From Cladopsammia gracilis (lineage: Eukaryota; Cnidaria; Anthozoa; Scleractinia; Dendrophylliidae): a stretch of DNA of 64,000 bases. The notes under the pieces are model-generated. The model saw only the letters and a program-made list of their open reading frames with translations, searched no databases and was not told where the DNA came from. The DNA is taken from NCBI GenBank assembly GCA_022457155.1, contig JAJGOT010000707.1:264911-328910 (forward strand), given 5' to 3'. Positions 3,990-53,165 of this stretch are shown in pieces. Both the position numbers and the translations under genes were made by a program. Position 1 is the first letter of the stretch; every line of letters begins with the position of its first letter.

Positions 3990-4480
3990 TGGTCCATTTG
4001 GTGTAGATTCGTCTAAAACTATTTGTGCTTCTTATAGCCAAGGAAATAGTGTTTTTTGGTTCTAATGTGGGTAGTCAGTGTGTAGCGATGAGTTTAACAG
4101 CTATATTGTATAATTTTAGTCGCATGATAACATGTGCGTCAGATCTTGTTGAAATTACGAATTTTGGTAATGAGTTGTATACTTATCTTTCTAATTTAAC
4201 ACAAAAAGAATGCCTTATGTTAACTGAAGTTCCTAATGTTGTTTGTATGGGAGAGTTAACTTTCAATTTATTAGAGTTAGTTATTATGGAAATGTACATT
4301 ATTTTAATGACAGTATAATAGAAGAGAGTTGTTTACTTTTGTTTGAGGCTTTTGAATCGTTATTACGTGATAATTGTAAGTCATTTATTTTGACAATAAT
4401 AATTTATACAGTCGCTATTTTTGAGAAAAGACTGGCAAGGGATCAGGGATGGTGTATTCAAAGTGTTTGATTCACATAGT
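3990..4480 (+). pseudogene. Papain-like cysteine protease domain, 5' part, interrupted
   Basis: Three frame-shifted pieces read as one protein. GSQCVAMSL (about 4070-4095) is a plausible nucleophile-Cys motif. It is followed by a helical segment (4100-4230), a hydrophobic core with SFILTI (about 4380) and FDSH just before 4480, an Asp-x-His pair expected for papain-fold proteases and deubiquitinases of the herpesvirus-tegument (C76-like) or OTU type. At least three frame changes are needed, so it is dead. The frame stops at 4480 where the 16 kb element begins, and the end of the domain, with CGTCVL, resumes at 20441. Proteins like this occur in cnidarian mobile elements (from memory). The exact family is uncertain. 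Confidence 0.5.
4475..4480. repeat. 6-bp target-site duplication, left copy (catagt)
   Basis: catagt directly precedes the inverted-repeat terminus AGTAGTATAGGGCC. The same hexamer directly follows the right terminus at 20415-20420. Confidence 0.75.
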
Positions 4481-4517
4481 AGTAGTATAGGGCCAGCAAA
4501 GATAAGCCCCGTTACGG

Positions 4518-4549
4518 CCTAGGTGCCTAGGTGCCTAGGTGCCTAGGTG
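4518..4549 (+). repeat. Tandem CCTAGGTG, four copies near the left end
   Basis: Four perfect 8-bp units. The right arm has three units (20354-20377). CCTAGG is palindromic, so the array could be a subterminal binding-site array (inference). Confidence 0.75.
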
Positions 4550-4839
4550 ATGACGTAGTTTGGTATAGGTAACTTATTAATATGTATTATCAACTGCCTA
4601 TACCTTTTGTGTTAATAAATGACTAGGGATAGTGCCTAGGTAAATCATTGATATGTACATAATTACATTCCACAGCCTTCTTAAAACAATGGGAACAATA
4701 GACCGGCCCAAACTTGCCCGCTCTATTCACACCCTGATTGGATCTTAAGATTTGTATTGTCTGTTTGAATAAAAAGCACAGATTTTTCGAAAGCATTATC
4801 ATTTCTGAGTCAACTTGAGCAAAGCGTATTTTTTCCAAG

Positions 4840-5520
4840 ATGTTTCCATTCTTTCAAGTCAAATCGAGCTCTAAACCTCTTCTGATAGACGAAATGCAAA
4901 AACTCCAGCGCAAAGATATGAATTGTATTGGAATGCTATGCTCAGGAAGTTGTGTAGAGAAGGCTTGGAATGAACTGACATGTGATTTTCAAAGTCTCAC
5001 TCGGCTGTTAGACGAACCCAAGTTAAATTTAGAGTTTCTTGCTGAATGTTTCAAGGAAGTAAGAAACCACGCTCACTCTTTGAGTGCCAGTTTATACCGT
5101 CACTCCTTGGTTTTTTATAAGAATCCCTATGGTAGACGCGACTGGATGCTGATTGTAGCGATATGGATAACCCTTCAAGATCGTATTGCTCAGTTGGAGC
5201 TGCAGCTGTTTGTAAACAAGACAGGAAAAGCACACCTAGCTTTGTTATCGTTACAGATCGAAAACCTAGTAAAGTAACTCAAAGCGTTGTGATTACGAAA
5301 GAGCGCGGGATCACAAAAGGACTACTATCAGAAGCCAAAGAAAGATGACCCTGAAAATGGAACCAGTGAAAAGCAAGGACTAAATGTCTTGGAGTCAATT
5401 ACCAAACACCAAGTCAAACCGAAAAAGCGAAAGCTGTCAACATTGAATGTTAAGATTCCCAAGCGACCAAAACTTCACAGACAACACGCAGTTGTCGAAA
5501 ATCGAAGTGATGAACTGTAA
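4840..5520 (+). pseudogene. Left-arm copy of the basic unknown protein gene, two nonsense changes
   Basis: Collinear with the intact right-arm copy at 19380-20063. It lacks one codon near residue 15 and has an AAA-to-TAA change at 5275-5277. A TGG-to-TGA change follows a few codons later. The rest of the frame continues to a stop at 5518-5520. A polyadenylation-type AATAAA lies near 5587. It therefore encodes only the first 145 residues if expressed. The function is unknown; see the right-arm copy for domain content. Confidence 0.7.
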
Positions 5521-5615
5521 AACTTTGAGTCACTGAGAACTGATTTTGTAAAATTATTTCAAAATATGTTGTTCATTTCTAGTATCAATAAACCATTAAT
5601 ACGTAAATCTATTTT
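5448..5615 (+). repeat. 3' end of the basic-protein gene, first of two local copies
   Basis: AAGATTCCCAAGCGACCAAA through the stop codon and 3' flank reappears with a few differences at 6015-6180. The same local duplication is present in the right arm, so it predates the arms' separation. Confidence 0.75.
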
Positions 5616-6014
5616 ATATTTGTATGTGCTTTAAGTTTTGAGAACAGGACTTTCCGGTAGCTTCAAATCTCCAACTTTTAATTATGCGAACTTACACTGA
5701 ACTAAATTTGCATGGAAAATTAGCACCTCGGAAAATTAGCACCTCGGAAAAATAAACAAGGCAACCAATTACATGCGCGCGCTAAAACAATTAACCCAGA
5801 CTTTGTTAAGGTCAAACTATATTTATTGATAACAAACAACTTCATAATTATACAGGCAATTTAAACGCTTAGTTGGAAAGGAAAAAAAACAGAGTTGGTT
5901 TAGTCTTTTTCATCTGGAAGAGCTTGTTTGACAAACAATGATCGATTGAGTAAGATTTTTCGCTTATCGATTCGAGGCAATGAAATCCTTCTGTCTTTTT
6001 TGTTGGGTTCTTAA

Positions 6015-6180
6015 GATTCCCAAGCGACCAAAACTTTACAGACAACACGAAGTTATCGAAAATCGAAGTGATGAACTGTAAAACTTTGAGTCACTGTGAA
6101 CTGATTTGGTAAAATTATTTCAAAATATGTTGTACGATTCTAGTATCAATAAGCCGTTTATGCGTAAATCTATCAATATT
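6015..6180 (+). repeat. Second local copy of the gene's 3' end
   Basis: About 165 bp repeat of 5448-5615, comprising the last about 24 codons, stop codon and 3' flank. Not a gene on its own. Confidence 0.75.
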
Positions 6181-7670
6181 TGTGTGCCTGTCAATATTAT
6201 TTGTCCTTCCTTTACTACTTAGAAAACCTGATAAGAGGGTTTTACTAACATGAATCACGGTTGTGGGAAATTAAACCCACATCAAGCTTATAGCGACTTA
6301 AATTCTTACCCCTTTACTCCAAACTTATTCCAACACCCTCTATTTTGATCAGAAATCAATAAAGCGATCGAAGTTATTTTTAATTCAACCACCATGACAA
6401 TGTCGGCTTACTTGGATAAATTTCATCAGAAATTATTCATCTCTTTTTTCAGTAACTAACCTGCAAAGCAGCATCTCCTCCACACCATGTAAAGTGAAAG
6501 TTTGATTTCAACAGGATAAAACTGTTTACAAAATTAAAATTAAATTAAATTTATCGCTAATTTATCAAACAATTGAGGCCACAAGGGCCTCGGAAGACCA
6601 AACCCAATATATTTAGCGGGTGTGTTTACTGAGAACGCAGGCCTTACGGGGAGACGTGTTTTCTTTCTTTTTTCCCGCTGCCTCCTGAAAAGTTTTTATT
6701 TAATAACCCAAGAAGTAATTGAAAAGCGCGATGCTTGCAAAAAAAACCCCAAATTTATAGTAGATTTTCTTTTCAAATATGTTTATTAACCATACAAATC
6801 TGTTTGCAAAGTGACATTTATGTCTATTTCGAGGGCCTCGAGGGCCAAACGGGCCGCTTTTGAGGTGTGTTTTCCCTGGGATCGCGTGGGGGATCTCGCG
6901 TAAAGGTCGCATTTTGTTTAAACACTTTGATTTATTCCCTGTGAATGAATCGGATAAGGCTCTTAGATTATAACATTACTTCAAATTTCCGTTAAAAAAC
7001 CAATTCTCTTTTGAGCGCATTTTTTCTGTCATCACAATCCTTGAACCGCGGGTGACTTTTACTGGGAATATTGAAGAGGTCTTTGCCTTTCTCGATTCGG
7101 TAAGTTGTTTTCCATCTCAAACTTAGTTTTAAAGCTTTGTAGAACTAAGCTTCCTTCACTGTTCAACAAGTTTAAATTATGCGAATAGACTTGACCGAAA
7201 GGGTTTCAACCAAGCGTAATACCCACAGGGAGTTTAATTAATTTCACTGAACTTTAATTAATCTCGAATTGTCCTTTCCATTACAGTTTTCGATTACTGA
7301 GTTGCAAGAAATCGGGGGTGTGGAAAAGATTTCGCTTAGTAATGTAAGTAATTCCATCGTTGTGTTGATCAAAAATAAACAAAACTGTTTGCAAAACTAA
7401 ATTTATCGTTAATTAAACTCGAAACAACAGCCAAAAACGCCAAAAGCGCCAAAAAAACGCTACGTTTTAGCGGTGTGATTCGGGGGATCGCGCGTGAGAA
7501 GGAGTGTGGAGTTCGCGCGCATTGAACGTCTCGGGGTAATCTTTAGTCGTAGGAAGTTGCTTTGAGTATCTATACCGCATTAGTGTAAAAAACTTTAAAA
7601 CTCTATAATATAATAACTCGCGTAAAAATATACGAATGTGGGTTACGACGGTTATGATGCGCTGTGTGGA

Positions 7671-8155
7671 GGTTCACACAAGTTAATTTCTCTTTGCTGC
7701 TAATTCTGCTCCCTGATTTACGGATCGTGGATCTCAGAGACAACCCTTTTAAGTGTGAAAGAGCCTACGACAATCTTTCACTCAAAATTATTTCAGACTG
7801 TGTTACTACTACGAGAGCTGTTATGGCTACGAGCAGCTCCACTTCCAAACACAGATCGACTATCGCTACGTCCACACTCACCACCAAGCAGAGATCAACG
7901 ATCGCTACGAGCAGTCCCACTACCAAGAACAGATCGAGTCCACAGCCTAGAAACCATGAGAAGCACAGGAACTATTTAACTGTCTTACTTTTCAGTTTAA
8001 TTTCCATCCCACTGATAGTTATTTGTTTGCGCGTGATAATTAAACTATGGAATGTTAGGCGTAGAAAGCAGTTACAAAGATCATTTGAACTGATTCCTTT
8101 AAATTCAGAAGATAGTGACGAGAAAGATGTCATATTCGATGACACGGAACTCTGA
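7671..8155 (+). pseudogene. LRR membrane protein gene, left copy lacking its 5' end
   Basis: Matches the right-arm gene from the LRR onward: LPDLRIVDLRDNPF, a Ser/Thr/Lys-Arg stalk with three near-repeats, one hydrophobic helix and an acidic tail ending FDDTEL. Compared with the right arm, 458 bp (right-arm positions 16787-17244) are replaced by one base at 7670/7671. This removes the signal peptide and N-terminal cap, and no ATG start remains in frame. Confidence 0.7.
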
Positions 8156-8298
8156 ATGTACTGAACGTATTCTTACTACGTATACGGTTATGTTTTCCAA
8201 CCTCTTCACGTTAAATGGTAATTAATTATTGTTCTCGGTTTGATAATTTTGATTCGTTGGTCCACTTACATGGTTTAATTCACCCTTTGATTATATTT

Positions 8299-8448
<150 letters not shown>

Positions 8449-8451
8449 AGA

Positions 8452-8688
8452 TGAAAAGGCACATTTGTAACCTTTTTATGGCACTTTGGTAACCCATATG
8501 GCACTTTGGTAACTCTATGTGGCACATTGGTAACTCGCTGTGGCACATTGGTAACTCGCTGTGGCACATTGGTAACACAATATGGCACATTAGTAACCCA
8601 ATATGGCACATTGGTAACCAAATATGGCACATTGGTAACTAACGTGGCACATTGGTAACTAACGTGGCACATTGGTAACATTGCCACG
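8452..8688. repeat. 21-bp minisatellite TGGCACATTGGTAAC
   Basis: Ten or so units with constant TGGCACATTGGTAAC and a variable 6-bp remainder (TCGCTG, ACAATA, CCAATA and similar). The unit length is a multiple of three, so it produces a spurious repetitive frame on the minus strand. Isolated half-units (GTGCCAC next to TTAC) occur near 15290 and 15465 on the other side of the core. Confidence 0.9.
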
Positions 8689-9098
8689 TTATGATAAAGT
8701 TTGTAGTGTTTTAATTAAGTAGAAGTTCCGCTGGCATCTCGAGTGTTCTCCAAAATTCCCACATGCATAGTCAGAAGACTCGATGTATGCACAGCAGCTA
8801 AAAGCATGAACCAATTGTTTTACAACATAGCTAGGCCAGTGGAAATGAAGGGCGTAAACCGAACTGATAATGGCTATTCGCGCGATGGAAATAACACGTT
8901 AAGTTTGTTCATGCTATAAGAGTGCATAAGAAAAAGTGAACTTGAGCACTCTTGCGATGATGAATTTAATTTCGGCAAGAGAACATAAAGCTACTCTTGA
9001 TTTCGGGTATTTGCTAGGTATGTTATAAACAGTAGTTCACAGTACACCTGACCCTAAGACAACGCTGTATGCCTGTGGCTAGTTTGGCAATAGGTTTA
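8689..9098. other. Unique spacer in the element core
   Basis: AT-rich, no coding frame and no repeat recognised, ending at the TA that flanks the Tigger element. Confidence 0.5.
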
Positions 9099-9301
9099 CA
9101 GTGGAACCTCGATATAACGATGTTCCCGGTATAACGATCAACATTTGACAGCCCGGCAAATGTTACAGTAAATGCATGGAGAAAACTCCCGATATAACAA
9201 TATTCGATACAACGATATTCTCGATATAACGATCACAATCTGGCAGCCCAAAGATAAAATTTACCCTGATATAACGATAAAATCAATCATCAGCTGATGG
9301 A

Positions 9302-9661
9302 AAAATTGACGTTAAATTGTTGGAAATAAAGTCGAAATTTAAAATTTTTAAAAACCAGGTGCAAATATAATTTTAGTGTACAAATAAAATAGCCTGTTTT
9401 CGCTTTCAAATTTCCCGCGCGCCGCCATTTTGAATATTTGTGACGTGTTACGGTTGCTGCTATCGAATCGAAGTTCTTTTGTATGCAACAATAAGACAAC
9501 CGTAACACGTCGTAAATATTCAAAATGGTAGCGCGCGGGAAATTTGAAAGCGAAAATAGGCGATATTCATATCCATTTTTTTGTACACTAAAATTATATT
9601 TGCACTTACTTTTTAAAAATTTTTAATTTAGACTTTATTTCCAACAATTTAACGTCAATTT
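9302..9661. mobile_element. Foldback MITE inside the Tigger copy
   Basis: Near-perfect palindrome with arms of about 155 bp starting AAATTGACGTTAAATTG and a loop of about 40 bp near 9480. The related Tigger copy (around 13880-13905) runs across this position without it, giving an empty site. Confidence 0.75.
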
Positions 9662-9792
9662 GTTATAACAATGGAGGCTCCCTTTAACACTTGGAAATAT
9701 GTGACGTACTTTAATCATTGCATAAGGACTGTCATGTGTCTGTCAACAACTTGTTACGATAAGGAAGAGAGAATTTCTGCGCTCTCTTTCTT

Positions 9793-9866
9793 CGATGGAG
9801 GACGCTTTTTTGAGAGTCCAAAAAAATGAGCAAAGGCAATCAAAACTTGACGAATACTTTCAGTGA
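9793..9866 (+). pseudogene. C-terminal remnant of Tigger/jerky-like transposase
   Basis: A short frame reads SMEDAF then NEQRQSKLDEYFQ and a stop, like the KQ-x-x-x-DEYF tail that ends Tigger/jerky transposases. The second copy has the same tail on the minus strand at about 13700-13775. The DDE catalytic core is absent. Confidence 0.5.
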
Positions 9867-10606
9867 CAAATGGAACTTAGAAATGAACACTTATTTCAAA
9901 TGTTTAAGGTTTGTTATGCGTGCACACACCACAGTAAAAGGACCCTTAAAGTACACAGCATTACTAATCGAAGTTTATCAAAATTAATAGCCAAATGCGT
10001 GAACTCAAAGAAGAAACATTATACGGACAATGATCAAGTCGTTATTTCAAATGTTAAAGTTTTATAGTTTTACACTACACACAATACTGAAGTTTATCCT
10101 TGGAAAGATGGAAACCAAGTGTTGTACTGTACAAATCGTTTAGTAACAACGTGCAATAATAAATTACACAAAGAAATCAATGAAAAATAAATTATTAACA
10201 ATACCCCGATATAACGATATTTTTGGCTCTTTTCCCGAAAAAAAACACGTTATATCGGAAATAGCGTTCCTCTCAGATTCTAAAAATAGAATTGGCGCGC
10301 AGCATCATGGGATTGAAATGCGTACAAACATTCAAGAACTATGCAGGTAGCTACGAAAAAACAGGTGCTACGAAGCACTGTTCTTGGGTAAAACTCGACA
10401 ATTATCCACAACATGTACAGGAATCGCAAAAAGTGGTGTTTCCGAGGCAGCCATTTTGAAATATTTGTCCGCATTTCGATCCCACAATGCAATGCTGCCA
10501 AATATGACGTCATCTGGGCGGAACTCTATTCGTTATTACGATCTCCTGATATAACGATCTAATTCGTCGGTCCCTTGGCACATCGTTATATCGAGGTTCC
10601 ACTGTA

Positions 10607-11798
10607 TATGAATGGTCACATTATTTTGAATCACGTGATTCGCCACCAAAGTTTATACTTGTTGCCACTGACACTGAGTTTGTTTCAACCATGTTATATA
10701 AAAACCACATAAAACAAATAATGGAATACATGTCAATACAGTAGTTCCTAATTTAATAATGATTTTAAAATTTTAAATCTGCAATCTTAACAATTTTTAT
10801 GAAAGATTGTTTTATTGCAAAGGAAATTATTTTTAATAATCGGTCGAGTTACTTCAACAGGAACGATAAACTTTAATGAGATAAAGATATGAGCCTAATT
10901 CAGCACTTTGATTAAACGTAACTGAAGTCACGGGAAAGTTATAACAACAAAACATTAATGATTTTCAGAAACCAAAAATAAATTTGTAAGACTTAAAATA
11001 AGTGACTGGCATAAGGCATTGAAAACACAAAGCTAAAAAAGCGTTGAAGTACATGTATATTTAAAGTCCATTGATTTTCCTTGTTTGTAGAGCAGGTTGC
11101 TTTAGAAAATCAGTTATCACTCTTAAATTAGTTTTGAAAAATATTCTATGATCAATATCTATGATCAGCCACACCACAGCAACGATAAATAACTACGCAA
11201 TAAACAATTGAACCTTAAACACTTTGATTTAACGGTAAAGTCACGGGGATTAAGTCGGAACAAAAAAACAACCATTTTCAATTGTCTACAACTACTTCAA
11301 CTATATAAATTTCTACTCATTCATAGCTTAGAATAACTTAGAATAACTGACTCACATAAAGCTTTTAACACAACTGCCAGATTTTATTAAAATTTCAAGT
11401 CCCAGCGGAATTTTAAAACAATTGTACAAACTGAATAGCCTTTGATTCAGAGCATTTGGGTAGTTGTGTTAGATGAGGTCCTTGGGCAAATGGTCTATTT
11501 TTTCTAGTCGCACTTCCAGATACGAGAGATGGGTGTCTTGAGCTGTTTTGTTCTAATGCTTGCTTTTGACAATCCGTGCTATAAAGTGCCAATTCATGTA
11601 TGTACACTATGACTGTTATGCGCGCTTTATATAAGCTCGCTTTTGGACATGACATTATATTGAAATTAAAAGGCAGCATCATGAGGGCGAAACTTGAAAA
11701 CGTTGGGCCGACGTTTTCAAGTTTGATTCGGCAAATTCAAAAAGGCCGTCGAGAAGTGGACCTATTTGTTGAATCAAAAAATCCGTTTCGATAGCCGG
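10607..11798. other. Core of the 16 kb element, no gene seen
   Basis: AT-rich sequence with only short random frames. Two direct copies of CTTAGAATAA occur near 11330. Nothing else is identified before the 11799 MITE. Confidence 0.45.
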
Positions 11799-11935
11799 TA
11801 GCCTGCGTGGCAGGCGTTCGAAGGGGAAGGGAAATGGGAGAATTCAGGCGCGCGAGGATAGCCGCGCCCTTCGCGTTCTCGCGCGCCTGAATTCTCCCCT
11901 TTCCCTTCCCCTTCGAACGCCTGCCACGCAGGCTA
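11799..11935. mobile_element. 137-bp foldback MITE with 8-bp target duplication (hAT-like)
   Basis: Nearly perfect palindrome beginning TAGCCTGCGTGGCAGGCG with about 57-bp arms. The octamer atagccgg flanks it at 11791-11798 and 11936-11943. An 8-bp duplication is typical of hAT elements. A half copy lies at 3824, and a longer element with TAGCCTG ends and an 8-bp duplication lies at 61809. Confidence 0.85.
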
Positions 11936-11943
11936 ATAGCCGG

Positions 11944-12363
11944 AAGAAAGAAAAAATCACTTTTAACAGTGATATGTCCAAAATTCCGGTGCAAGAATAG
12001 CTAACAGTGCCGCGCGTGGAACCTCGTGATACTGCCCCTTTAAATTTACCGTAAAGGATCCATGAGAAAACCAAACAAGATTTAACACGATATACCACAG
12101 TGAAGATTTAATGGCAATTTTTTTGTCCGTGCACAACAGACAGGAAGAACCGAGGGCAGGCAATAATTTGGAAAGAAGCTCAAATGAAAGTCTTGGTAAA
12201 TTAAACAGATGACCTTTGCTATTTTACAACACATGGACACGCTTATTCGTGGCTGGCCTGCCATGTCTAATGTAACTGACTTTCAAACCAAAAAAAGATC
12301 CTTTCGCGGTTATCTTTATTCGAACTGCACATGTGAATAGAGGCGATTGATCTTTTCTTAATT
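11944..12363. other. Core spacer, nothing recognised
   Basis: No protein-like frame or inverted repeat seen. Confidence 0.45.
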
Positions 12364-12615
12364 AGGGACTGTGCAATAAGTAGCAGGATGGGGGGAGGGG
12401 TTGAGAAACGGGAGGGGTGGAGGCACAATGTAAAATCATATCCCAAGAGGGGGGGAGGGCAACACGCAAATTACTCTATGAAAAGGAAGGGGGTGATATC
12501 TAATTTTTATTGCCAGACTCACTGGTACTCACTAGTAACTCAACAATAAACCTACACCACTAATATTAAAATAAATACAATCACTTTTCTGGCACTGTAG
12601 CAATGTACAGAGCAT

Positions 12616-12644
12616 AATTTATTTATTTATTTATTTATTTATTA
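12616..12644. repeat. (ATTT)n microsatellite
   Basis: Seven tandem ATTT units. Confidence 0.9.
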
Positions 12645-13042
12645 TGGAAAATGTAACAAAGGGCACTGCTTAGTGCCAGAATCACATGAGTGTACATGTA
12701 CTTCATCTATATCCGATCATAGTTACATGAACTTTTCAGCCCAATTCTAATGTCAGTGTAATGAAAGACATGGTTAATAAAACTACATACGCTGCAGGTA
12801 TTGCCAGTAACTTGGCAAAATTATAAGAATGGTCACACAAAGCATTTGACGCAAAGCATTCCATGATACATATTTTTGTTGAGTATTGTTTATATTCAGC
12901 TGCTCGAATACAGCTCATGAATCTGAATTCTGTTCATTTAAAGAACTCCTGACATGACTCTGCAGCTTCTCCAATAAAGCAATTGAAGCTGAGAAAGTCT
13001 CTCAAGCAAGCTTTGTCAGTGAGCAACGTGAATATAGGAAGG

Positions 13043-13044
13043 GT

Positions 13045-13083
<39 letters not shown>
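13043..13083. repeat. (TTTC)n microsatellite
   Basis: About ten TTTC units. Confidence 0.9.
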
Positions 13084-13213
13084 GTCTGTTTTACTGGGCT
13101 ACAACTTTCCGTCTAATTTGGCCTTTCTTCCTTCTTCTTGTTTCTTCTAGACTTTGATGATTTTAATTTTAATCCAATGGAATAAATGGACTTGAATTTT
13201 TTTAAATGCTGTA

Positions 13214-13951
13214 CAGTGGAACCTCGATATAACCATGTGCCAAGGGACCGACGAATTAGATCGTTATATCAGGAGATCGTAATAACGAATTCCCGATATA
13301 ACGTGTTTTTTTTTCGGGAAAAGAGCCAAAAATATCGTTATATCGGGGTATTGTTAATAATTTATTTTTCATTGATTTCTTTGTGTAATTTATTATTGCA
13401 CGTTGTTACTAAACGATTTGTAAAGTACAACACTTGGTTTCCATCTTTCCAAGGATAAACTTCAGTATTGTGTGTAGTGCTAAAACTATAAAACTTTAAC
13501 ATTTGAAATAACGACTTGATCATTGCCCGTATGATGTTCCTTTTTGAGTTCAAGCATTTGACTATTAATTTTGATAAACTTCGATTAGTAATGCTGTGTA
13601 CTTTTAGGGTCCTTTTACTGTTGTGTGTGCACGCATAACAAACCTTAAACATTTGAAATAAGTGCTCATGGTGTTCATTTCTGAGTTCCATTTGTCACTG
13701 ACAGTATTCGTCAAGTTTTGATTGTCTTTGCTCTTTTTTTGGACTTTCAAAAAGAGCGTCCTCCATCGAAGAAAGAGAGCGCAGAAATTCTCTCTCCCTT
13801 ATCGTAACAAGTTGTTGACAGATACATTACAGTCCTTATGCAATGATTAAAGTATGTCACATATCTTCAATTGTTAAGCCTCCTTTTCCATCGCGCGATG
13901 ATTGATTTTATCGTTATATCAGGGTAAATTTTTCTTTGGGCTGCCAGATTG
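13214..13951 (-). mobile_element. Second Tigger-type copy, truncated
   Basis: CAGTGGAACCTCGATATAAC follows TA at 13212-13213. The sequence is the reverse complement of the right part of the 9099-10604 element, including the 3' non-coding part and the transposase tail. It then breaks off at about 13951 inside the left subterminal region. It lacks the 9302 foldback insertion. Confidence 0.75.
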
Positions 13952-14019
13952 TGGGTTTACGTCTTAATTGTTTTAGGTACGGGGGGTTGATAGTTTATTT
14001 TTCTTCAGCAGTGGGGGAG

Positions 14020-14580
14020 GGGGGCGAAGTCTAATTTTTAACTGTTTCTTTCCCGTTTCTCTCCCCCCCCCCCCCCTCTCCTGCTAATTATTGCACAGTC
14101 CCTTATGTAGATTTCGGCACTGTAAACGCCCATCAACTTTTTTTGTGACTTGTTTTGTAATGCTGCAAGGGGCGAGTTACGATAGGCAATGTCGCTATAA
14201 ATTTTGTTGAAGTAGTGTTGCCTGAAGTTTAATCAAGAACTACTTTTCAAAATGCATGGTTGCAATAGCGCTCAACAAGTAGTAGGGGGCGAAGTCTAAT
14301 TTTTAACAATTTATTCCCCGTTTCTCTCCCCGCGTCCTCCCCCCCACCTCCCCCACACCGCTAATTATTGCACAGTCCCTAATGTAGATTTAGAACTTAG
14401 ATGTTGGCACTGTAAACGCCCATCAACGTTTTTTGTGACGTACTTGTTTTGTAATACAGCATGGGCGAGTTACGATAGGCACTGTCGCTATAAATTTTGT
14501 TGAAGTGTTGCGTGAAGTTTAACCTAGGACTACTTAATTTTAAAATGCATGGTTGAATAGCTAGACAACTTGCAAGAAGT
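14020..14580. repeat. Tandem duplication, two units of about 265-290 bp
   Basis: GGGGGCGAAGTCTAATTTTT, C-rich run, TTATTGCACAGTCCCT and GGCACTGTAAACGCCCATCA appear twice in the same order and orientation. The unit includes the end of the 12364 element, so the duplication happened after that insertion. Confidence 0.8.
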
Positions 14581-15599
<1,019 letters not shown>

Positions 15600-15712
15600 T
15601 GAATGCTCCTTAAAAGTGGTTAAGAGGTTACAAAAGTGCCCTGTGCCGTGGTAAGCACTTTTTAAAAAGCTTTTTAAGTTCATTTCAGGTCCAAAATGTA
15701 GCTATTGCCTTG

Positions 15713-15762
<50 letters not shown>
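15713..15762. repeat. (AT)n microsatellite
   Basis: About 50 bp of perfect TA. Confidence 0.95.
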
Positions 15763-15767
<5 letters not shown>

Positions 15768-16045
15768 ACCACCCTCTCAATTACCACATCACTTTAAATA
15801 TAATACTGAACTTGCAAAAGGTAGTAGTTTTTTCTTTTGTTGGAGCAAAAAATATGGAATTCCATTTCATTTAACATCACATCTGTAAATTCTCTCTCCG
15901 CTTTTAAAACACAGATAAACAATCTCGCTGTCTTCTAATTAGTGTAATATAGTTACTGATCATTGTATAATAGGAATAGCAAACACGGTGTTTCTGTAAA
16001 GCAGTTAATCAGTTACTGATATGTAAACGCTGTGTATAAATAAAG

Positions 16046-16117
16046 TTTATTCATTCATTCATTCATTCATTCATTCATTCATTCATTCATTCATTCATTC
16101 ACTCATTCGTTCATTCA

Positions 16118-16158
<41 letters not shown>
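16046..16158. repeat. (ATTC)n followed by (CT)n
   Basis: About 19 ATTC units grade into about 18 CT units. This is the inner boundary of the right arm and mirrors the (AG)n tract at 8299. Confidence 0.9.
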
Positions 16159-16159
<1 letters not shown>

Positions 16160-16302
16160 AAAGATAATCAAAGGGTGAATTAAACCATGTAAGTGGACCA
16201 ACGAATCAAAATTATCAAACCGAGAACAATAATTAATTACCATTTAACGTGAAGAGGTTGGAAAACATAACCGTATACGTAGTAAGAATACGTTCAGTAC
16301 AT

Positions 16303-16980
16303 TCAGAGTTCCGTGTCATCGAATATGACATCTTTCTCGTCACTATCTTCTGAATTTAAAGGAATCAGTTCAAATGATCTTTGTAACTGCTTTCTACGCC
16401 TAACATTCCATAGTTTAATTATCACGCGCAAACAAATAACTATCAGTGGGATGGAAATTAAACTGAAAAGTAAGACAGTTAAATAGTTCCTGTGCTTCTC
16501 ATGGTTTCTAGGCTGTGGACTCGATCTGTTCTTGGTAGTGGGACTGCTCGTAGCGATCGTTGATCTCTGCTTGGTGGTGAGTGTGGACGTAGCGATAGTC
16601 GATCTGTGTTTGGAAGTGGAGCTGCTCGTAGCCATAACAGCTCTCGTAGTAGTAACACAGTCTGAAATAATTTTGAGTGAAAGATTGTCGTAGGCTCTTT
16701 CACACTTAAAAGGGTTGTCTCTGAGATCCACGATCCGTAAATCAGGGAGCAGAATTAGCAGCAAAGAGAAATTAACTTGTGTGAACTGATTATATCGAAG
16801 AGAGAGCTCCATAAAATCGTTGAGTGTTTCCTTTGGTTTCGGTAGCGTTTACAAACCAACTCTCGCACAATCGACCAACTGCGTTGATCGTACACAATAA
16901 CATCGCTCCTCAAAACACTTGAACGTCAAAATCGTTGGAAAGAAAGGAATAGCGAATATAAGAAGGACCAACATTTCCAT
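16303..16980 (-). pseudogene. Small LRR single-pass membrane protein, one in-frame stop
   Basis: Reading from ATG at 16980: signal peptide (residues 1-20, MEMLVLLIFAI), an LRR N-terminal cap with Cys at 22, 27, 29 and 38, then TAA at codon 44 (16851-16849). The same frame then continues without a break to 16303. Downstream come a single LRR segment with LRIVDLRDNPFKC (C93, C108 as C-cap), a Ser/Thr-rich basic stalk with three near-repeats (about 115-155), one membrane helix (about 166-188) and a cytoplasmic tail that is basic then acidic. Without the stop it would be about 225 residues, very short for an LRR receptor. Readthrough or an unrecognised intron could rescue it. It is probably captured from a host LRR gene (inference). 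Confidence 0.6.
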
Positions 16981-19379
16981 TTTGCAATCAAGTTGGATGG
17001 CATACACGTGGAACAAGAAATTCGAGAACGCGTGAAAACTATTTCAACGGAAATAAGTCATAGTAGAAATTCGAGCGTGTGAAAAAAAAAAAACTAGGAG
17101 ATTAAGTTCCTTACAGGAAACGAATGAAGCACACAAGACTGACACTCACATTTCGACATTTCCAATAAGATTGAAATTCGCGCGCTAATATACTTTATTT
17201 GCTTATAACTTATACCTTATTTGCTTTGAAACATATCTCGGTTTCTCCACACAGCGCATCATAACCGTCGTAACCCACATTCGTATATTTTTACGCGAGT
17301 TATTATATTATAGAGTTTTAAAGTTTTTTACACTAATGCGGTATAGATACTCAAAGCAACTTCCTACGACCAAAGATTACCCCGAGACGTTCAATGCGCG
17401 CGAACTCCACACTCCTTCTCACGCGCGATCCCCCGAATCACACCGCTAAAACGTAGCGTTTTTTTGGCGCTTTTGGCGTTTTTGGCTGTTGTTTCGAGTT
17501 TAATTAACGATAAATTTAGTTTTGCAAACAGTTTTGTTTATTTTTGATCAACACAACGATGGAATTACTTACATTACTAAGCGAAATCTTTTCCACACCC
17601 CCGATTTCTTGCAACTCAGTATTCGAAAACTGTAATGGAAAGGACAATTCGAGATTAATTAAAGTTCAGTGAAATTAATTAAACTCCCTGTGGGTATTAC
17701 GCTTGGTTGAAACCCTTTCGGTCAAGTCTATTCGCATAATTTAAACTTGTTGAACAGTGAAGGAAGCTTAGTTCTACGAAGCTTTAAAACTAAGTTTGAG
17801 ATGGAAAACAACTTACCGAATCGAGAAAGGCAAAGACCTCTTCAATATTCCCAGTAAAAGTCACCCGCGGTTCAAGGATTGTGATGACAGAAAAAATGCG
17901 CTCAAAAGAGAATTGGTTCTTTAACGGAAATTTGAAGTAATGTTATAATCTAAGAGCCTTATCCGATTCATTCACAGCGAATAAATCAAAGTGTTTAAAC
18001 AAAATGCGACCTTTACGCGAGATCCCCCACGCGATCCCAGGGAAAACACACCTCAAAAGCGGCCCGTTTGGCCCTCGAGGCCCTCGAAATAGACATAAAT
18101 GTCACTTTGCAAACAGATTTGTATGGTTAATAAACATATTTGAAAAGAAAATCTACTATAAATTTGGGTTTTTTTGCAAGCATCGCGCTTTTTAATTACC
18201 TCTTGGGTTATTAAATAAAAACTTTTCAGGAGGCAGCGGGAAAAAAGAAAGAAAACACGTCTCCCCGCAAGGCCTGCGTTCTCAGTAAACACACCCGCTA
18301 AATATATTGGGTTTGGTCTTCCGAGGCCCTTGTGGCCTCAATTGTTTGATAAATTAGCGATAAATTTAATTTAATTTTAATTTTGTAAACAGTTTTATCC
18401 TGTTGAAATCAAACTTTCACTTTACATGGTGTGGAGGAGATGCTGCTTTGCAGGTTAGTTACTTAAAAAAGAGATGAAAAATTTCTGATGAAATTTATCC
18501 AAGTAAGCCGACATTGTCATGGTGGTTGAATTAAAAATAACTTCGATCGCTTCATTGATTTCTGATCAAAATAGAGGGTGTTGGAATAAGTTTGGAGTAA
18601 AGGTGTAAGAATTTAAGTCGCTATAAGCTTGATGTGGGTTTAATTTCCCACAACCGTGATTCATGTTAGTAAAACCCTCTTATCAGGTTTTCTAAGTAGT
18701 AAAGGAAGGACAAATAATATTGACAGACACACAAATATTGATAGATTTACGCATAAACGGTTTATTGATACTAGAATCGTACAACATATTTTGAAATAAT
18801 TTTACCAAATCAGTTCACAGTGACTCAAAGTTTTACAGTTCATCGCTTCGATTTTCGATAACTTCGTGTTGTCTGTGAAGTTTTGGTTGCTTGGGAATCT
18901 TAAGAACCCAACAAAAAAGACAGAAGGATTTCATTGCCTCGAATCGATAAGCGAAAAATCTTACTCAATCGATCATTGTTTGTCAAACAAGCTCTTCCAG
19001 ATGAAAAAGACTAAACCAACTCTGTTTTTTTTTTCCTTTCCAACTAAGCGTTTAAATTGCCTGTATAATTATGAAGTTGTTTGTTATCAATAAATATAGT
19101 TTGACCTTAACAAAGTCTGGGTTAATTGTTTTAGCGCGCGCATGTAATTGGTTGCCTTGTTTATTTTTCCGAGGTGCTAATTTTCCATGCAAATTTAGTT
19201 CAGTGTAAGTTCGCATAATTAAAAGTTGGAAATTTGAAGCTACCGGAAAGTCCTGTTCTCAAAACTTAAAGCACATACAAATATAAAATAGATTTACGTA
19301 TTAATGGTTTATTGATACTAGAAATGAACAACATATTTTGAAATAATTTTACAAAATCAGTTCTCAGTGACTCAAAGTT

Positions 19380-20063
19380 TTACAGTTCATCACTTCGATT
19401 TTCGACAACTGCGTGTTGTCTGTGAAGTTTTTGTCGCTTGGGAATCTTAACTGTCAATGTTGACAGCTTTCGCTTTTTCGGTTTGACTTGGTGTTTGGTA
19501 ATTGACTCCAAGACATTTAGTCCTTGCTTTTTACTGGTTCCATTTTCAGGGTCATCTTTCTTTGGCTTCTGATAGTAGTCCTTTTGTGATCCCGCGCTCT
19601 TTCGTAACCACAACGCTTTGAGTTTCTTTACTAGGTTTTCGATCTGTAACGATAACAAAGCTAGGTGTGCTTTTCCTGTCTTGTTTACAAACAGCTGCAG
19701 CTCCAACTGAGCAATACGATCTTGAAGGGTTATCCATATCGCTACAATCAGCATCCAGTCGCGTCTACCATAGGGATTCTTATAAAAAACCAAGGAGTGA
19801 CGGTATAAACTGGCACTCAAAGAGTGAGCGTGGTTTCTTACTTCCTTGAAACATTCAGCAAGAAACTCTAAATTTAACTTGGGTTCGTCTAACAGCCGAG
19901 TGAGACTTTGAAAATCACATGTCAGTTCATTCCAAGCTTTCTCTACACAACTTCCTGAGCATAGCATTCCAATACAATTCATATCTTTGCGCTGGAGTTT
20001 TTGCATTTCGTCTATCGTCAGAAGAGGTTTAGAGCTCGATTTGACTTGAAAGAATGGAAACAT
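19380..20063 (-). CDS. Unknown 227-residue protein with basic C-terminus
   Basis: Complete frame of 227 codons starting MFPFFQVKSSSKPL, with context AAG-ATG. Residues 20-150 are predicted largely helical with hydrophobic heptads (for example IWITLQDRIAQLELQLF). A Lys/Arg-rich tail (about 155-220) contains KPKKRKL and KIPKRQK, which look like nuclear or nucleolar targeting signals. No catalytic motif, membrane segment or zinc motif is visible and the family is not recognised. The left-arm copy has two stops, so this copy is the better preserved and may be the only functional one. It points toward the element core and has an AATAAA-type signal beyond its 3' end near 19310. It is probably a passenger gene or an unknown element gene. 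Confidence 0.6.
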   Translation of the reverse strand: MFPFFQVKSSSKPLLTIDEMQKLQRKDMNCIGMLCSGSCVEKAWNELTCDFQSLTRLLDEPKLNLEFLAECFKEVRNHAHSLSASLYRHSLVFYKNPYGRRDWMLIVAIWITLQDRIAQLELQLFVNKTGKAHLALLSLQIENLVKKLKALWLRKSAGSQKDYYQKPKKDDPENGTSKKQGLNVLESITKHQVKPKKRKLSTLTVKIPKRQKLHRQHAVVENRSDEL

Positions 20064-20353
20064 CTTGGAAAAAATACGCTTTGCTCAAGTTGACTCAGAA
20101 ATGATAATGCTTTCGAAAAATCTGTGCTTTTTATTCAAACAGACAATACAAATCTTAAGATCCAATCAGGGTGTGAATAGAGCGGGCAAGTTTGGGCCGG
20201 TCTATTGTTCCTATTGTTTTAAGAAGGCTGTGGAAGGTAATTATGTACATATCAATGATTTACCTAGGCACTATCCCTAGTCATTTATTAACACAAAAGG
20301 TATAGGCAGTTGATAATACATATTAATAAGTTACCTATACCAAACTACGTCAT

Positions 20354-20377
20354 CACCTAGGCACCTAGGCACCTAGG
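20354..20377. repeat. Tandem CACCTAGG, three copies near the right end
   Basis: Complement of the CCTAGGTG array at 4518-4549, with one unit fewer. Confidence 0.75.
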
Positions 20378-20414
20378 CCGTAACGGGGCTTATCTTTGCT
20401 GGCCCTATACTACT

Positions 20415-20420
20415 CATAGT
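20415..20420. repeat. 6-bp target-site duplication, right copy (catagt)
   Basis: Directly follows the terminus CTATACTACT and equals 4475-4480. Confidence 0.75.
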
Positions 20421-45065: not shown

Positions 45066-45639
45066 GGATAGTCCTCGAGAACAATGGCGACTTAAACAGT
45101 GGAAGAAACTACTTCATGTAACGTTCGAAATAATGGCAAAAAAAAAATAAAAAAAAGATCTATACACATGTACAGGGATCTATACACTTCACTATACCAT
45201 GCAAACACTGCTAATAAAATTTCTTGCCGTTTAAAACCCCGAATAAATTGCTCAAAAATTTACGAAACCGCTCGGTCAACTTAAACGCCTAGCTAAGTTG
45301 GTGCGATCAGGAACGTTTTCAAAAAAGCTTCCATCCATTTTGCGAGTGTGACTTCTATGCACCACAGGGAAAACCCGTTTTGATGTCAAACAATTTTTTC
45401 GCAAAGTTTAACATCTAGTTTAGGAGAGATTGGTTTTCTTTTTCGTACTGTTTTTGAATTCTAAGGGATGTAGCTAGACCAGAAAGCATGAAATCGCGTT
45501 TTTTGTTGTCTCATACGTCCACCCAAGATCGCGAAAAAAAAATGCTACGGTCAATATACAAAAGTTTCCTACCGTACAAACAAAGTTGCATTTATATTAG
45601 TCTATTATCTTAAAAGGATCTCGACAACTCATCTCATTA

Positions 45640-46760
45640 ATTTATACAAATTTCCCTAGTCGACAATCAAAGTTACAGTTAATGTTATAATTTACTGCTG
45701 TCTCGAATGGATCTCATCACCTCAGAAGCTTGGGCGTGCCGCCTGTAAGCTTGCATGAGGGAGCGGAGACCCCTATGTTCAAATCATTGATTTATACAAA
45801 TTTCTCTAGTCGGCGAACAAAGTTACAGTTGATGTTATAATTTAATGCTGTCTCGAATGGATCTCATCACCTCAGAAGCTTGGGCGTGCCACCTGTAAGC
45901 TTACATGAGGGAGCGGAGACCCCTATGTTCAAATCATTGATTTATACAAATTTCTCTAGTCGGCGAACAAAGTTACAGTTGATGTTATAATTTAATGCTG
46001 TCTCGAATGGATCCCATCACCTCAGAAGCTTGGGCGTGCCGCCTGTTAGCTTACATGAGGGAGCGGAGACCCCTATGTTCAAATTTAGAATTTAAAAATT
46101 AGTTCCTACTTCTCTAGTCGGCAAACAAAGTTACAGTTAATGTTATAATTTACTGCTGTCTCGAATGGATCCCATCACCTCAGAAGCTTGGGCGTGCCGC
46201 CTGTAAGCCTACATGAGGGAGCGGAGATTCCTATGTTTAAATCATTGATTTATACAAGTTTCTCTAGTCGGCAAACAAAGTTACAGTTAATGTTATAATT
46301 TACTGCTGTCTCGAATGGATCTCATCTCCTCAGAAGATTGGGCGTGCGGCCTGTAAGCTTACATGAGGGAGCGGAGCCCCTATGTTCAAAACACTAATTT
46401 ATACAAATTTCCCTAGTCGGCAAACAAAGTTACAGTTAAGGTTAATTTAATGATGTCTCGAATGGATCTCATCACCTCACAGCTTGGGCGTGCCGCCTGT
46501 AAGCTTACATGAGGGAGCGGAGACCCCCTATGTTAAAAACACTAATTTATACAATTTTCCCTAGACGACAAACAGAGTTACAGGTAATGTTAATTTACTG
46601 TCTCAAATGGATCTCATCACGTTAGAAGCTTGAACGCGCCGCTTACGTAAGGTAGTAGAGATCTTAAAGACTAATTTGCGAAAGTGTTCCTAGTCTACAA
46701 ACTAAGTTACAATTATTGTATAAAGTCTGCTACCACGAGTAGGTTTGATCTCCTCAACAC
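45640..46760. repeat. 150-bp satellite, about 7.5 units
   Basis: Unit starts fall near 45661, 45811, 45961, 46119, 46269, 46418 and 46566, with a degenerate last unit near 46696. The conserved core is AACAAAGTTACAGTT, TCTCGAATGGATCTCATCAC and TGAGGGAGCGGAGA. Divergence increases toward the right end. Confidence 0.9.
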
Positions 46761-51399: not shown

Positions 51400-51476
51400 A
51401 GGAGTAATGTCCAGGATTGCACGCAGCTACGAAAATTACTAAATTAACTAATTTTTGCTATGGTTGGGTGACAACT

Positions 51477-53165
51477 GCTAAAATTACGAAAACTACAAAA
51501 AATAGTAAAATTCGTCATCCCAGGAGAAAGGAGACGAGAAAGGAGGCAGAAGGTACCGACGGAAACTGCAAAAACTACGAAAACTGCGAAATTTACAAAA
51601 ACTGCGAAAAATAGTAAAATTCGTCATCCCAGGAGAAAGGGGACGAAAGAGGAGGCAGAAGGTACCAACGAAAACTGCGAAAACTACGAAAACTGCGAAA
51701 ATTACAAAAACTACGAAAAATAGTAAAATTCGTCATCCCAGGAAAAAAGAGACGAGAGAGGAGGCAGAAGGTACCAACGAAAACTGCGAAAACTACGAAT
51801 ACTGCGAAAACTGCGAAAAGTACGAAAACTACGAAAAATAGTAAAATTTGTCATCCAGGAAAAAGGAGACGAGAGAGGAGGCAGAAGGTACCGACGAAAA
51901 CTGCGAAAAATACGAATACTGCGAAAACTGCGAAAATTACGAAAACTACGAAAAATAGTAAAATTTTGTCATCCCAGGAAAAAGGAGACGAGAGAGGAGG
52001 CAGAAGGTACCGACGAAAACTGCGAAAAGTACGACTACTGCGAAAACTGCAAAAATTGCGAAAACTACGAAAAATAGTAATATTCGTCATCCCAGGATAA
52101 AGGGGACGAGAGAGGAGGCAGAAGGTACCAACGAAAACTGCGAAAAGTACGAAAACTGCGAAAATTACGAAAACTGCGAAAAATAGTAAAATTCGTCATC
52201 CCAGGAAAAAAGAGACGAGAGAGGAGGCAGAAGGTACCAACGAAAACTGTGAAAACTACGAATACTGCGAAAATTACGAAAACTGCGAAAAATAGTAAAA
52301 TTCGTCATCCCAGGAGAAAGGGGACGAGAGAGGAGGCAGAAGGTACCATCGAAAACTGCGAAAACTACAAAAACTGCGAAAATTACGAAAACTGCGAAAA
52401 ATAGTAAAATTCGCCATCCCAGGAGAAAGGGGACGAGAGAGGAGGCAGAAAGGCACCGACGAAAACTGCGAATACTGCGAAAACTACAAAAATTACGAAA
52501 ACTGCAAAAAATAGTAAAATTCATCTCCCCAGAAAAAGGAGAGGAGAGAGGAGGCAGAAAGGCACCGACGAAAACTGCGAAAACTACGAATACTGCGAAA
52601 ATTACGAAAACTGCGAAAAATAGTAAAATTCGTCTTCCCCAGAAAAAGGGACGAGTGACAAGGCAGAAAGGCTCCGACAAAAACTGTGAAAACTACGAAT
52701 ACTACAAAAATTACCAAAACTGTGAAAAATAGTAAAATTCGTCATCCCAGGAAAAAGGGGACGAGAGAGAAGGCAGAAAGGCACCGACGTAAACTACGAA
52801 AACTATGAATACTGCAAAAACTACAAAAATTACCAAAACTGCGAAAAATAGTAAAATTTGTCTTCCCCAGAAAAAGGGGACAAGCAGAAAGGCACCGACA
52901 AAAACTGCGAAAACTATGAATACTGCGAAAATTACGAAAACTGTGAAAAATTCGTCACCCCAGGAAAAAGGGGACAATAGAGAAGGCAGTAGGGCACCGA
53001 CTAAAACTGTGAAAAATAGTAATTCATCAAACCAGCTGTGAAAAATAGTAAAAATCATCATCCCCACTAAATGGGGATGAGGGACAAGGAAGAAGGGCAC
53101 CAACAAAAATTGGAAAATTAAGAAAACTGCAAAAAAAAAAAAATAATAAATTAATAAAATTTCTC
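51477..53165. repeat. 1.7 kb minisatellite, about 110-125-bp unit, about 15 copies
   Basis: Each unit has TAGTAAAATTCGTCATCCCA, GGAGGCAGAAGG, ACCGACGAAAACTGCG and then 3-6 copies of a 9-10-bp subrepeat (GAAAACTRC). The subrepeat number sets unit length. Long Phe/Arg/Ser-rich frames on the minus strand are a by-product. The right end decays into AT-rich sequence. Confidence 0.95.

Follow-up and report, generated by a model that had tools for sequence, protein, structure and literature searches.

A 6-bp target duplication and AG...CT ends are marks of Polintons (Mavericks), whose copying mode is, to our knowledge, inferred mainly from gene content. The element described here occupies positions 4481-20414 of a 64,000-nucleotide stretch of the Cladopsammia gracilis genome (contig JAJGOT010000707.1, positions 264,911 to 328,910), referred to below as the window. 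It carries both marks and is best explained as a non-autonomous, palindromic Polinton derivative. The junctions in the centres of related palindromes strongly suggest a fold-back mechanism, and fold-back copying of a one-ended Polinton intermediate followed by integration in trans is the probable origin of these palindromes.

According to two studies, Polintons encode a protein-primed PolB plus an integrase (PMC6431247), and strand displacement was shown by a Polinton-type polymerase (PMC3511435). The window element resembles Polintons in its duplication length, its ends and the occurrence of these ends on integrase-, ATPase- and polymerase-bearing elements. In contrast, its inverted repeats, at about 4 kb, are longer than the few hundred base pairs found in C381, C585 and C603 (C-numbers designate copies on contigs of the same 878-Mb genome), and none of the integrase, ATPase and polymerase genes was found in it. 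Mutator-like gene-carrying elements (Pack-MULE) have a 9-11-bp target duplication, which the 6 bp observed here do not match. Among the defective genomes of adeno-associated virus, snapback genomes form a major class (PMC8235507). They are similar in that one genome end is copied head to head, symmetric or looped, with helper-dependent replication, but they are subgenomes that a rolling-hairpin virus packages, whereas the present palindromes have integrated into the genome, where they are inherited and amplified, and their putative parent has a polymerase of the protein-primed type. Galileo and other foldback-like DNA transposons resemble the elements described here in having long inverted arms that are highly variable among copies; Galileo, however, is placed in the P-element superfamily (PMC3573991), whereas the present elements have a 6-bp duplication and ends associated with a retroviral-type integrase. 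Among the open-access papers listed in a literature search, no title or abstract opening described such elements; subscription papers and Repbase were outside the scope of this search.

The window element and its insertion site

The termini of the element are AGTAGT...ACTACT, both outward ends are identical (AGTAGTATAGGGCCAGCAAAGA), and the hexamer CATAGT flanks them as a target duplication without assigned strand (left copy 4475..4480, right copy 20415..20420). The inverted-repeat structure with arms of about 4 kb that the initial annotation had described was confirmed. The outer arm pair (4481-7671/17245-20414) is 98.2% identical over 3196 columns and the inner pair (7672-8335/16123-16786) 99.8% over 664 columns, with approximately 458 bp of the right arm (16787-17244) absent from the left. 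The left arm (4481..8446, plus strand) ends in an (AG)n tract (8299-8446). The right arm plus loop covers 15482..20414 on the minus strand, of which 16123-20414 is arm. The loop of about 0.5 kb (~15601-16122) is colinear with C727 up to ~5110 of the latter, the turn-back being read by eye, and is followed by a (GAAT)n(GA)n tract in inverted orientation (15482-15607), which resembles the tract of the arm.

Two genes are recognisable in each arm, as previously noted, but they are largely broken. Gene 1, encoding a basic protein, is an open 234-amino-acid frame in the right arm only (19383..20084, minus strand); the left copy (4819..5517, plus strand) has two stops along the aligned path. The gene for a leucine-rich repeat (LRR)-like membrane protein is broken on both sides, with one internal stop in the right copy (16306..16983, minus strand) and only residues 65-226 of 226 in the left copy (7667..8152, plus strand). 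The window copy is a decayed, older member of its family. No frame longer than 234 amino acids and no integrase or family B2 polymerase frame was found in the element (Pfam, 3 of 17 listed frames).

The span of 16 kb is not a single unit, since the middle (8447..15481, putative ends, no strand assigned) is a dispersed element nested within the (AG)n tract of the palindrome centre. Both of its edges co-occur 6.75-7.5 kb apart in C327, C11, C460, C1053, C1376 and C1057, while in C176 the distance between them is 13.7 kb, and no gene-1 or LRR match lies nearby at these places among the matches listed; this recurrence between the same two edges identifies it as a separate element. Once it is subtracted, the palindromic element is ~8.9 kb long by coordinates. 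Opposed repeats at 9234-10619 and 13193-13953 had first suggested that the palindrome continues through the middle; this reading was dropped because these repeats end inside in what we take to be Tigger-type termini and because the middle recurs as a unit. Short inverted ends of the middle itself were also considered, with a 23-bp inverted edge match reaching a score of 18.5 where none of 2000 random pairs exceeded 17.0, but a similar motif occurs in the arms, so that this match alone proves nothing.

The insertion itself is real. The interrupted target (left part 4007..4480, plus strand, continuing past 20420) is a Herpes_teg_N-like gene (PF04843), a family which we take to be cysteine-protease-like. 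The match spans the insertion point with E 2.4e-7 when the pieces are concatenated with X at the breaks, compared with E 0.07 for the left piece alone. As for the protease gene proposed earlier to be split exactly by the element, the match crosses the insertion point, the target gene is itself broken and repeated, and no frame of at least 50 amino acids runs across the joined site. The search for an uninterrupted target was successful within the same genome. The joined flanks matched at 40 places (40 of 159 candidates scored). At 14 of these the identity is 94-97% over 238/240 bases, with the insertion absent, which means that the target is multi-copy and that uninterrupted copies exist.

The end-sharing family and its link to Polintons

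The terminal 14-mer AGTAGTATAGGGCC was found with at most one mismatch at 466 places in the genome (243 + 223), compared with 105 (60 + 45) for a reversed control. Convergent end pairs were picked by eye from about 100 of the 466 places; C991x (two ends in one orientation) and C1052x (a pair spanning 36 kb, represented by its first 10 kb) were left out as incomplete. The resulting 30 complete elements, the window copy included, range from 0.19 to 24 kb in length with inverted repeats of 25 bp to 7 kb, and 27 of them have an exact 6-bp duplication (GGGGGG in one case). The further copies whose existence the initial annotation had made a matter of search thus form a large family. Additional copies found via gene 1 have matching 6-bp duplications in 13 of 13 cases (12 by script, C319 by eye). 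Both ends are of the same variant in eight of the nine copies compared, C985 having two variants, and since several of these copies end in variants other than the 14-mer, a search with the 14-mer does not capture the whole family. The family defined by these ends is real and young.

Members of this family bear Polinton genes. C585 (15.5 kb, exact duplication, same terminal 14-mer) encodes an integrase core (E 5.8e-11) with a chromodomain (E 1.6e-12). This integrase has 110 genome matches (108 of 5094 candidates scored), including 42 full-length ones at 94-100% identity, 38 of which are stop-free, and a second set near 50%. A frame of C284 with an Adeno_IVa2 match below the cut-off clusters with frames of C585, C233, C867, C381, C771, C919 and C19, and the cluster member in C233 matches Pox_A32 (packaging ATPase) above the cut-off. 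A frame of C1030 contains polymerase motif B plus YTDTDS; this frame has 7995 relatives in total, and of the 120 that were listed at least 19 bear PF03175, and a second polymerase frame of C284 aligns with it through DTDS. C1030 may be composite, as it has no duplication and a 44-bp inverted repeat. It also contains a YqaJ-like recombinase domain and has three unknown frames (392-637 amino acids) in common with C268. A capsid gene was identified in none of the copies examined.

The similarity extends beyond the termini. Window positions 4481-4892 align with C585 1-465 at 71% and positions 19993-20219 with C585 483-233 at 80%, and 18 of 29 residues at the start of gene 1 are identical to the end gene of C585. 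The Polinton-like appearance noted at the outset was thus substantiated, whereas the suggestion of an undescribed class apart from Polintons is contradicted by the shared ends and the shared protein start. As integrase is found in C585 next to the same 14-mer but not as a frame in the window copy, the latter is a derivative and not an autonomous Polinton. Judged by the ends and the duplication length only, elements of the window type would be moved in trans by a Polinton integrase.

Gene 1 has 154 matches in the genome, many of them paired in inverted orientation. It has a basic tail, no Pfam or PHROG match and no database relative at E 0.001 among 240 candidates; in IMG/VR, no relative of gene 1, the C585 integrase or the LRR gene was found. 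The LRR gene has one database relative (29%). In C727 it is a single frame in which a signal-like start, a stretch resembling LRRs, a stalk rich in Ser/Thr and a membrane-spanning segment were labelled by eye, and its only Pfam match is a weak one to TMEM154. Its 28 genome matches include 16 intact copies forming eight inverted pairs (C280, C428, C727, C1038, C985, C1103, C1400 and C357; 100% rounded identity, two score classes) and a single intact copy in C1054. Each of these eight palindromes also holds two open copies of gene 1, so that both genes are present twice, head to head. Among the matches listed, no host source for either gene was found, and none of the 28 LRR matches was shown to be host-derived. 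The dN/dS values of gene 1 (0.38-0.78, six pairs, four copies) give no argument for selection, since the copies are too little diverged.

The tail of gene 1 alone recurs in other elements. It lies 8-10 kb from a second-set integrase at four of 35 loci among the matches listed, in one relative orientation. Tail-only frames are also found inverted, ~7-11 kb apart, at C643:929109-939837, C811:14254-24857, C1139:363816-370577 and C17:152265-159235.

C1054 is a candidate for the parent element. On one strand it carries a single arm with the terminus, a broken gene 1 and an intact LRR gene, is colinear with C727 to 5277 and continues with a PolB gene (PF03175, E 2.1e-14), the subsequent frames of which contain motif B and DTDS. 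C755 also has a single arm, after which the inverted terminus is soon reached. PolB relatives are common in the genome (67 of 4343 candidates scored); no other gene-1 or LRR place lies near them among the matches listed. Four head-to-tail PolB frames (1343 amino acids), ~5.55 kb apart, are located at C1395:24979-43502.

Palindrome centres and the origin of the palindromes

Apart from C284, which could not be chained, the elements of the family sample (29) were chained for spacer measurement. The spacer makes up at most 4% of the length in nine of the 29 and measures 276-814 bp in five and 1036 bp in one; the rest are ordinary or mixed, and some small elements have repeat-rich arms. An inverted repeat was detected at the midpoint of 11 of 13 gene-1 relatives (C972 at 91%, C1271 at 85%). 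In gene-bearing centres, loops of ~50-360 bp stand against arms of 1.6-7 kb. Arm identity within three elements (99.2, 100 and 99.3%) exceeds that between elements (97.4-98.5%).

Four centres consist of a short loop colinear with the parent, followed by a turn at an inverted microhomology of 3-7 bp. C304 is colinear with the long arm of C727 up to 4268 before returning at 4091, with GATC as the overlap. For C319, colinearity with the same arm extends to 1898 and the return is at 1624, with CAG as the overlap (both by script). One centre is common to C1103, C357, C985, C280, C1400 and C428, which are 97.6-99.6% identical to C727. Compared with this shared centre, C727 turns at TGTTAA after a 112-bp loop, its arms being 99.9% identical over 7.0 kb (script), and C1038 turns from the opposite side at AGAAAAT (by eye). 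Both C727 and C1038 thus represent an older centre that was folded anew, from a different side in each. Overlaps of these lengths are expected by chance with a probability of ~4e-10, assuming independent bases and ignoring base composition and the choice of centres. The six copies with the shared centre lie at six insertion sites with different duplications, which indicates that palindromes move as palindromes. By listing, centres are also common to C618 and C1066b, C232 and C809b, and C768 and C838. C603 (24.4 kb) is a palindrome fused into a longer element: its left third contains two gene-1 copies in opposite orientation, and the remainder is unrelated sequence.

The course we consider probable would start from a linear Polinton copying intermediate with one proper end only, comprising the terminus, gene 1 and the LRR gene. 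A short inverted microhomology would allow this intermediate to fold back, and its 3' end would be elongated, with the strand itself as template, as far as the terminus. Opening of the hairpin at the next round would yield a palindrome with two identical working ends. Polinton integrase could insert this palindrome in trans, creating a 6-bp duplication, after which the palindrome could multiply as a satellite. The window copy would be an older palindrome, the centre of which was later split by the unrelated 7-kb element. We infer the linear protein-primed intermediate, the priming step and the integrase supply in trans. Whole genes are, in effect, mobilised in duplicate, as had been supposed, but their doubling is better explained by fold-back copying of one end.

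Several observations weigh against this course. The complete copies C19, C1030 and C991 have no duplication, and the unlike ends of C985 and C284 are not given by a simple fold-back. Loops of 276-1036 bp also occur, which blurs the size classes. The turn of the window copy falls in a microsatellite, where no clear microhomology was found. No inverted repeat was present at the fetched midpoints of C768 (395-404 kb) and C453, and the midpoints of all four tail-only elements (C643, C811, C1139 and C17) are not palindromic. The PolB link comes from one locus and may be a chimera, as the point where C727, C755 and C1054 diverge lies in an (AG)n tract; the 1.4 kb sampled in C689 and in C1438 gave no PolB and no other match. 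Nor was any replication intermediate observed.

Part of this evidence would also suit an abortive chromosomal gap repair, in which, following excision or breakage, both sides of the gap copy the same transposon end from a template and the copies are joined into long inverted repeats. Microhomology junctions are expected there as well, and mixed templates fit the unlike ends of C985 and C284 and the mid-sized loops. However, independently ended copies should leave kilobase spacers and not the short loops of the gene-bearing centres, and C727 and C1038 each re-fold one older centre from one side; we regard gap repair as unlikely. Still less can be said for a separate transposon system consisting of the two genes and borrowing Polinton-like ends. 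Against it, neither protein resembles a recombinase or a polymerase, the majority of the 30 copies fetched carry neither gene but have the same duplications, and integrase is abundant and mostly stop-free in its full-length matches; in its favour are the intactness of both genes in all eight young palindromes and the absence of either from any Pfam family above the cut-off. We consider this explanation very improbable. Near-perfect long palindromes are difficult to assemble, and a head-to-head joining of two haplotypes had been named at the outset as the finding that would overturn the element. The exact 6-bp duplication together with the uninterrupted target copies, the recurrence of one centre at six loci with differing flanks and duplications, and the separate 7-kb element at the centre of the window copy contradict such an artefact, to which we attach almost no credence.

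Remaining repeats and implications for Polinton biology

Outside the element, the window contains a second long inverted repeat (26186-28289/32167-34274) with 2.1-kb arms of 94% identity, a direct repeat of 1 kb with 98% identity (57829-58826/62998-64000) and overlapping direct self-matches resembling tandem arrays (51470-53144 and 45634-46642). A fragment at 21466-21705 matches DDE_3, presumably a Tc1-type transposase, below the curated cut-off.

It is a fair possibility, which we put forward tentatively, that Polintons shed heritable satellites of the defective-interfering type, i.e., integrating snap-back palindromes with two intact genes of their own that multiply at the expense of the helper, and that their centres preserve, like fossils, the traces of Polinton copying that was linear and probably protein-primed and took place in an animal germ line. 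Palindrome pairs before and after re-folding, colinear loops and turns at microhomologies would then be genomic traces of one-ended linear fold-back copying, and the palindromes point to a route by which accessory genes may be doubled and spread.

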